A stretch of DNA of 32,618 nucleotides, from the NCBI GenBank assembly GCA_017857755.1, contig JAFMCM010000015.1, positions 1-32,618 of the forward strand, in the 5' to 3' direction. This document shows positions 2,815 through 23,963 of the stretch, piece by piece. The number at the start of each line of letters is the position of its first letter. Position 1 is the first letter of the stretch. Source of the DNA: Methylophilaceae bacterium. Lineage in GTDB: Bacteria > Pseudomonadota > Gammaproteobacteria > Burkholderiales > Methylophilaceae. The notes under the pieces were generated by a model. The model was not told the origin of the DNA and ran no database searches. It saw only the letters and a list, made by a program, of their open reading frames with translations. The position numbers and the translations under genes are program-made.

Positions 2815-4263
2815 TTAAGCATCTAGTTTCTTTTTCAACAAGGCATTGACTTGCGCTGGATTAGCTTTGCCTTTTGATGCTTTCATGGTTTGTCCAACTA
2901 ATGCATTAAAAGCTTTTTCTTTACCTGCTTTATACTCATCAACCATCGTCGCATTGGCCGTTAATACCTCGTCAATCATGGCTTCAATTGCACCAGTATC
3001 TGAAACTTGTTTTAGCCCTTTAGCTTCAATAATGGCATCAACATCTGACTCTCCTGACCACATCGCCTCAAATACTTGTTTGCCAGCATTGTTCGAAATC
3101 GTACCATCCGCAATCCGTATGACTAATTGCGCCAATGTTGCAGCATTAATAGGCGAATCGACAATCGTTTTATCCTCAGTGTTTAACTTTGCAGTCACAC
3201 CACCCATTACCCAGTTTGCCGCTAATTTAGCATCGCCACCCGCTTGAATAACACTTTCGAAATAATCAGCAATCGCCTTGCTTGAAGTTAATGTAGAAGC
3301 ATCATAAGACGAGAGTGCATACTCACTTTCAAAACGTGCCTTCATTGCCTCTGGCAGTTCTGGCATTTGACTTTTTATTGCGGCTTGATCAGCCTCTGTG
3401 ATGGCCAACGGCAATAAATCAGGGTCGGGGAAATAGCGATAGTCATTCGCTTCTTCTTTACTACGCATGGCGCGTGTTTCACCCGTATCAGGATTAAATA
3501 AAACAGTGGCTTGTTCTATTTTGCCACCATCTTCCAGTGTTTCAATTTGCCACTGCGTTTCATACACAATCGCTTGTTGCATAAACTTAAACGAGTTTAA
3601 GTTTTTAATTTCGCGCCGAGTACCTAATTCAGTCGTTCCTTTTGGACGGACAGAAACATTCACATCACAACGAAAACTACCTTCTTGCATATTGCCATCG
3701 CAAATACCAATCCATTGCACCAATTCATGTAGTTTTTTCGCATAGGCCACTGCTTCTGCCGCAGATCGCATATCTGGCTCAGTCACAATCTCCAGCAAGG
3801 GTGTGCCAGCGCGATTCAAATCAATACCGCTCATATCATCAACCGCACCATGCAAAGATTTACCCGCATCTTCCTCCAAATGCGCACGAGTGATATGAAT
3901 GACTTTTTCATAAGCTTCATGCTTACTAGTAGCAGGCACTTGAATCGTCATTTTTCCTTTGCCTACAACAGGTAGCTCAAACTGACTGATTTGGTATCCC
4001 TTGGGCAAATCTGGATAAAAATAGTTTTTGCGTGAAAACACAGAGCGAGGCGCAATTTCCGCATCAACGGCCAAACCAAATTTAATTGCACACTGTACGG
4101 CTTCTTTGTTGAGCACAGGTAAAACACCAGGTAAGGCAATACTCACTTCACAAGCTTGCGTGTTTGGCTCAGCGCCATAAGCGGTTGAAGCACCACTGAA
4201 AATTTTTGATTTCGTTCTTAGCTGAGTATGTGTCTCAAGCCCGATGACAACTTCCCACTCCAT
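2815..4263 (-). CDS. gatB: Asp-tRNA(Asn)/Glu-tRNA(Gln) amidotransferase subunit B
   Basis: This 482-residue subunit of the GatCAB amidotransferase binds mischarged tRNA and phosphorylates its Asp or Glu carboxylate before amidation. The N-terminal [10 protein letters not shown] and the [20 protein letters not shown] signature are present, followed by the helical tail domain (about residues 330-482) shared with YqeY proteins, which contacts tRNA. The start codon overlaps the gatA stop by one base (TAATG), so translation is coupled. It is the last gene of a gatC-gatA-gatB operon on the minus strand. Confidence 0.97.
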
Positions 4264-22561: not shown

Positions 22562-23524
22562 ATGACACAATTAGAAAATTTAGTTCAAGCCGATGTCGTG
22601 CTAGCCAATCCACGTGGATTTTGTGCAGGCGTTGATCGCGCGATTATTATCGTTGAACAAGCTTTAGAAAAATTTGGCGCACCCATTTATGTACGCAACG
22701 AAGTTGTTCACAATCAGTTTGTTGTTAATGAATTGCGTGAAAAAGGCGCGATATTCGTCAAAGATTTAGATGCCATCCCCAAAGGGAGTACCGTCATTTT
22801 TAGCGCACATGGCGTATCAAAAGCCGTGCGTGCTGAAGCCGATATACGTGGCTTGACCGCGTTTGACGCCACTTGCCCACTGGTCACAAAAGTCCATATT
22901 GAAGTGGCCAAAATGCGTAAAGAAAAGATGGAAATTGTGATGATTGGCCATAAAGGACATCCTGAAGTAGAGGGTACAATGGGACAATCAGATCAAGGAA
23001 TGTATTTGGTTGAAACTCCAGCTGATGTTGAGAAGCTGGTGGTGGTAGATGCCAATAAATTGGCTTATGTCACGCAAACAACGCTTTCCATAGATGACGC
23101 ACTCCAAGTTATTAACGCCTTAAAACATAAGTTCCCAGCAATTAAAGCACCAAAAAGTGATGATATTTGTTATGCCACACAAAACCGTCAAGATGCGATC
23201 AAAATCATGGCAAAAGATTGTGATTTGGTCATTATTGTTGGTTCCCCAAACAGCTCTAATTCCAACCGCCTTCGTGAAGTGGCAGAAAATCAAGGTGTTG
23301 AAGCTTATATGGTCGATAATGCTAGCTTCTTAAAACCTGAGTGGTTACTGAATAAAAAGAAAATTGGCGTTTCAGCAGGGGCATCAGCACCAGAGGTTCT
23401 GGTGAAAGAAGTCATTGCTGCCTTACAAAAGTTTGGTGCAAACAATATCCATGAACTTCAGGGTGTTATAGAAAGTGTGATTTTCAAGTTACCAAAGGAC
23501 CTGACCTCTGCCACAAAAAAATAA
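22562..23524 (+). CDS. ispH: 4-hydroxy-3-methylbut-2-enyl diphosphate reductase
   Basis: This 320-residue [4Fe-4S] enzyme performs the last step of the non-mevalonate isoprenoid pathway, making IPP and DMAPP. The three cluster cysteines are Cys21 ([13 protein letters not shown]), Cys105 (DATCPLV) and Cys203 ([10 protein letters not shown]). The substrate-pocket motifs [15 protein letters not shown] and [12 protein letters not shown] are intact. Its last 17 bases overlap the apparent start of nudB. A TATGAT at 22548-22553 is too close to the ATG to be a confident -10 box. Confidence 0.97.
23494..23499 (+). promoter_or_regulatory. Ribosome-binding site before the CTG start of nudB
   Basis: AAAGGA inside the end of ispH lies 8 bases before the CTG at 23508. 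It is the feature that singles out this codon as the likely nudB start. Confidence 0.55.
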
Positions 23525-23963
23525 AACTCCCGTTTCAGCTCTAATTCTGATTCATACTGCTGATTTACAAGTCCTAATTATGGAAAGGGCAGATAGAGCT
23601 GGCTTTTGGCAGTCGGTCACAGGAAGCCTAGAAAACGATGAAACCCCTTATCAAGCCGCTATTCGTGAAGTGTATGAAGAAACTGGCTTAATTGCATTGG
23701 ATTACGACTTTCAAGACTGGCAGGTAACAAACACTTATGAAATTTACCCACATTGGCGTCATCGCTATGCCGATGGCGTGACAGAAAACGTAGAGCATTT
23801 GTTCGGCCTTACCCTTCCAAGTCCTTTACCTGTTTCATTAGCACCTAATGAGCACCTCCGTTACGAATGGGTCGACTGGCGAGAAGCGGCGAAGCGGGTT
23901 TTTTCATGGACCAATATTGATGCACTGAAAAGATTGGGTGAAAAGCATCAATTGCGCCTTTAG
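23508..23963 (+). CDS. nudB: Dihydroneopterin triphosphate diphosphatase, CTG start
   Basis: This Nudix hydrolase of the NudB type removes pyrophosphate from dihydroneopterin triphosphate in folate synthesis. The Nudix box is perfect (G-x5-E-x7-REV-x-EE-x-GL, from GSLENDET to REVYEETGL), preceded by [11 protein letters not shown] and followed by [16 protein letters not shown] as in NudB. The first in-frame ATG is at 23580, but the 24 codons before it encode [19 protein letters not shown], which aligns with the first beta strands of NudB (PVSILVVIYA in E. coli, from memory). Between the upstream in-frame stop at 23502 and 23580 there is no ATG, GTG or TTG; the CTG at 23508 has an AAAGGA site 8 bases before it. 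I therefore annotate 151 residues from CTG, overlapping ispH by 17 bases. Confidence 0.8.

Follow-up and report, generated by a model that had tools for sequence, protein, structure and literature searches.

In a member of the Methylophilaceae, nudB is very probably translated from a CTG codon at position 23508, inside the last codons of the preceding gene, ispH; the sequences compared here are best explained by a natural CTG start that is genuine and conserved. A folate-pathway gene in a genus of methanol-using bacteria would seemingly have lost its normal start and have come to use a very rare one located in the gene ahead of it. The case rests on evolution: five species share the arrangement, the gene is a housekeeping gene, and the Shine-Dalgarno sequence is particular to the clade and embedded in another gene's codons.

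The ispH-nudB junction

In the window, by which we mean the whole stretch of 32,618 nucleotides that was analysed, taken from a 1.6 Mb genome that is 99.4% complete, ispH (4-hydroxy-3-methylbut-2-enyl diphosphate reductase) occupies positions 22562-23524 of the forward strand (NF002188, 507.7 bits against a cut-off of 420) and ends with TAA at 23522-23524. The nudB frame, on the same strand, is closed upstream by TGA at 23502-23504, and between that stop and the ATG at 23580-23582 (codon 25) it contains no ATG, GTG or TTG. Counted from the CTG at 23508-23510, the putative start codon, nudB comprises 151 codons and a stop (23508-23963) and overlaps ispH by 17 bases (23508-23524). The candidate Shine-Dalgarno sequence, AAGGA (23495-23499), lies 8 bases 5' of the CTG, within the Lys-Asp codons AAG GAC of IspH (23495-23500), and is part of the longer AAAGGA at 23494-23499. 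A first-pass annotation of this DNA had placed AAAGGA, TGA, CTG, overlap and ATG exactly as we find them, and its statement that no ordinary start codon separates the stop from the ATG held on rechecking.

The product is a predicted dihydroneopterin triphosphate diphosphatase, by its profile score (NF006961, 210.3 bits against a cut-off of 103, matching from profile position 3) and by its Nudix box. The consensus of that box is GX5EX7REUXEEXGU, and the nudB translation contains a stretch that fits it; the Pfam NUDIX domain (PF00293) is matched as well.

The window has 42 frames that run 100 codons or more from stop to stop; among 25 of these, at least three have a start-free lead that exceeds the 25 codons of nudB. 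One of them is nadA, whose lead of 30 codons lies mostly between nudB and nadA.

Conservation of the overlap in the genus

The genus was represented by six genomes, four of them 48-90% complete. In five (G000, G002, G003, G004 and G005) nudB begins inside ispH with the same overlap of 17 bases, its codon 1 is CTG, an in-frame stop (TGA in the window, TAA in the other four) stands two codons 5' of the CTG, and no ATG, GTG or TTG occurs before residue 13. G003 is 48% complete and G005 is a single-contig genome of 2.0 Mb; the junction of a further locus, L031 (Methylophilaceae bacterium ANT-32), is the same as that of G002. In the sixth member, G001, 53 bases separate the ispH stop from nudB codon 1, and codons 1 and 2 read GTG-ATG. 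The arrangement seen in the window is more than chance, since it recurs in four further species of the genus. Same-strand overlap or very short spacing is the geometry of coupled gene pairs, and it is present in all five species, at 17 bases.

These five species are not independent cases. A quick tree of 35 loci places the genus in one group (SH-aLRT 99), and a single change suffices to explain the CTG label, the branch that separates the five from G001 being weak (SH-aLRT 49); the shared 17-base overlap itself marks their common origin.

Among the matches listed, ispH and nudB are each found in at least 180 of the 187 family genomes. In many loci of other genera the two genes are adjacent, with ATG, GTG or TTG near nudB codons 2-4; in other loci compared, nudB is located away from ispH. 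The first-pass annotation had proposed looking in relatives for an ATG or GTG at the matching position. We did so at 113 distinct nudB junctions, which come from part of the 187 family genomes and, for a few loci, from outside the family (L056-L061 and L063, about 50% identity), scoring as ordinary starts those no later than codon 4 and no more than about 25 codons upstream. An ordinary start is present at 107 of them, the best being ATG at 66, TTG at 24 and GTG at 17, weak starts being common for nudB. The six junctions that have none all carry CTG at codon 1: five belong to the species described above and one to a species of another genus.

The distance from ispH to nudB, where the two are neighbours, runs from overlap to about 100 bases. 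In two genera with small genomes of 0.7-1.4 Mb (L117-L124, L126-L129 and L132-L136) little of IspH is left beyond its LP motif; in one set of these loci the nudB ATG follows 1-3 bases past the ispH stop, and in a second set TTG overlaps that stop as TTGA. Here too the ispH-nudB junction seems to have been tightened, in other ways.

The candidate Shine-Dalgarno sequence and its surroundings

In all five CTG species IspH reads LPKD at this point, encoded by AAG GAY, which yields AAGGA 8 bases upstream of the conserved CTG. Among the 87 other distinct ispH ends compared, the codon following LPK (or LPR) specifies Asn in 68, Ile in 17, and Phe and Lys in one each, but Asp in none; GGA at the position of the Lys-Asp codon pair recurs in one of the 87 (L007). 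Among the ends compared, this Shine-Dalgarno sequence, made of ispH codons, is particular to the CTG clade, and it is the strongest of the findings. The complete module, CCNAAGGAYYTRACYTCTGC, is found in 5 of the 187 family genomes, every one of them in this genus, and a control search with the module read backward gave no matches.

Of the codons that differ from ATG by one base, the CTG alone is common to all five species within codons 0-12; ACG at codon 7, for example, is found in one of them. No frame contains an ATG, GTG or TTG between the Shine-Dalgarno sequence and a point 36 bases beyond the C of the CTG, with the exception of a TTG at +34 in L006. Synonymous change in nudB is extensive (pS 0.57-0.70), yet the synonymous choices that the module needs are identical in all five. 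On the ispH side, AAG is common to all five species in 2 of the 23 conserved Lys columns and TCT in 2 of the 13 conserved Ser columns, this site being one of the two in either case. Codon identity across five species is by itself not rare: codons of any kind are invariant in 9 of the 23 Lys columns (7 of them all AAA) and in 3 of the 13 Ser columns.

The CTG triplet taken alone was dropped as evidence: it is present at the matching place in 10 of the 87 other ispH ends, and is for that reason little proof.

Predicted RNA structure around the nudB start adds no support for the site in the five CTG species. The Shine-Dalgarno sequence is unpaired with a predicted probability of 0.33-0.56, and the CTG with 0.72, 0.46, 0.01, 0.44 and 0.59, the value of 0.01 being that of L003, where pairing is predicted; the folding z-score is 0.48 for the window stretch.

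We also considered whether the initiation machinery of the host might be relaxed. IF3 is encoded (TIGR00168, 247.5 bits), and an initiator tRNA gene cut short by the end of a contig has an ordinary-looking GGG/CCC anticodon stem, ARAGORN calling no tRNA on that truncated stretch; the genome thus shows no sign of relaxed machinery. Non-standard infC starts are known elsewhere, and the infC (IF3) frame of the same genome (L159, contig C63, opening at 1423) lacks ATG, GTG and TTG in its first 30 codons, which reach as far as the profile match; it may begin at an ATA or ATT codon near GGGGATAGCTATAGCT.

Residues ahead of the first ATG

That the codons preceding the ATG at 23580 encode NudB protein, and that starting there would remove a core strand, had been proposed from the window alone; both claims are supported by comparison and modelling. 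Codons 6-24 evolve under protein-level selection: across the five CTG species their pN/pS is 0.172, that of codons 25-151 being 0.139, and K6, P8, S10, L12 and L23 do not vary among 17 diverse sequences. Codons 2-6 show no protein-level conservation (pN/pS 3.8, on few sites). The predicted structure, whose mean pLDDT is 95.3, places strands at residues 9-17 and 21-27, of which a start at codon 25 would delete the first and most of the second. Residues 7-144 of E. coli NudB (PDB 2o1c), a protein of the same family, align with residues 7-143 of the window protein (numbered from 23505), so that the two N-termini, the latter counted from the CTG, agree in length to within one residue. A scan limited to ATG, GTG and TTG starts would be expected to cut or delete the first NudB beta strand in these genomes.

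Alternative readings of the junction

The frames of ispH and nudB are related by +1, and one rival to a CTG start is a +1 frameshift near the ispH stop that would produce an IspH-NudB fusion. The window does have a run of seven A before the TAA, and the base following the TAA is A in all five species. The codon that would have to slip is nevertheless AAA, AAA, ACA, ACC and ATA (L001, L002, L003, L004 and L006, respectively), of which three are, by inspection, unable to re-pair one base on; L003 has the overlap with no A-run longer than four; and the conserved slippery codon expected at a programmed shift site is absent among the five. A shift at a non-slippery codon would, moreover, poorly explain a conserved Shine-Dalgarno sequence, and we consider a fusion very improbable. 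We hold an equally low opinion of a shortened NudB that starts at a downstream ordinary codon, the kind of start that a gene finder limited to ATG, GTG and TTG would have to pick. ATG at codon 25 is present in four of the five species, GTG at codon 22 in four and GTG at codon 13 in two, but none is common to all, codon 25 itself being TTA in L006 (genome G005); moreover, the protein-level constraint on codons 6-24 would go unexplained, and a start at 25 would forfeit one strand and most of another in a confidently modelled fold.

Fainter still is the prospect of another non-standard start, chiefly ATT at codon 9. This codon occurs in four of the five CTG species, and ATT is a real start codon of infC, but it reads GTT in the window itself, no properly spaced Shine-Dalgarno sequence precedes it on inspection of the five, and its use would cost the protein the invariant K6 and P8. 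Just as remote is an assembly artefact or a decaying pseudogene left with no start: several genomes of the genus are incomplete assemblies of many contigs, but the arrangement is identical in five diverged genomes, one of them in a single contig, and purifying selection acts across nudB.

Proposed origin and expression of the CTG start

The ispH stop of the CTG species is formed by nudB codons 5-6 (NNT AAA). Comparison with G001 and with other genera makes this consistent with a deletion, in the ancestor of the five species, that would have taken the old end of ispH, a short spacer and the ATG or GTG start of nudB itself. Initiation would then have shifted to a CTG already present within Ser-Ala codons of ispH (T-CTG-C), and AAGGA would have arisen 8 bases 5' of it by an Asn-to-Asp change and an AAG lysine codon in IspH, to be retained since. 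That an existing CTG was reused and supplied with a new Shine-Dalgarno sequence is suggested because the triplet is older, as its occurrence in 10 of 87 other ispH ends indicates, while Asp is absent from all 87.

The CTG at 23508 would be read by the initiator fMet-tRNA, and ribosomes that finish ispH 17 bases downstream may help nudB to initiate. The first-pass annotation had offered a genuine CTG start, coupling or re-initiation, and a lost ATG as options; because the ordinary start is absent, the CTG conserved, and the CTG placed inside ispH in the geometry of coupling, the relatives suggest that all apply together, coupling being read from that geometry. Expression is probably low, because CUG gives about 0.86% of the output of AUG in E. 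coli, as reported in PMC11497404. Weak translation would fit an enzyme of which the cell requires little.

A second candidate was seen in another genus. In G008 (locus L025; L054, around 2964-3060, has the same junction) an upstream gene, named aspS from its translation, ends in TAG and is followed by TCG and then by CTG as codon 1 of nudB. The two genes are in the same frame and no ATG, GTG or TTG appears until codon 15. This is a case of one species, and readthrough of the aspS TAG is a rival to a CTG start there.

A broader view would be that nudB of the Methylophilaceae has drifted repeatedly to weak starts and has at least twice come to use CTG, in ispH and just after aspS. The conserved CTG would then keep output low under selection, in dependence on ribosomes that leave the gene upstream, and would not be a tolerated accident. 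We regard this as speculative, and on balance doubtful.

Relation to known systems

CTG starts are rare but known in bacteria. In model bacterial genomes about 0.024% of annotated starts are CTG, according to PMC11497404 and PMC11983097, and among the matches listed in a literature search no publication title dealt with a CTG start of nudB. The reasoning used here, which combines a conserved frame, the lack of any ordinary start and a clade-specific Shine-Dalgarno sequence, could be applied genome-wide to find hidden CTG starts.

Within the NudB family, the E. coli gene follows aspS and starts at ATG, whereas nudB of the window follows ispH and appears to start at CTG. A close likeness is the rep gene of IncFIB plasmids (PMC11983097), in which a good ribosome-binding site precedes a natural CTG start and whose product appears to suffice in small amount, as we suppose for nudB; in most GenBank entries a downstream GTG is given as its start. 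The rep start is, however, backed by N-terminal analysis and by loss upon mutation of CTG to CTC, and the gene is carried by a plasmid, whereas nudB is a chromosomal housekeeping gene whose putative start lies inside the preceding gene.

The overlap resembles the same-strand overlaps of the coupled pairs described in PMC10666635, where long overlaps are commoner in phase 1 (-8, -11, -14 and so on) than in phase 2. The 17 bases of ispH and nudB fall in phase 1, but the pairs described there typically overlap by 4 bases, and coupling at our junction is putative. In PMC5622118, which treats GUG and UUG, AUG-to-CUG switches number 2 among 61,358 ancestral AUG starts. Adoption of a weaker start codon was accompanied there by change toward a stronger Shine-Dalgarno sequence, as appears to have happened at nudB, with the difference that the nudB Shine-Dalgarno sequence would have arisen within the codons of another gene.
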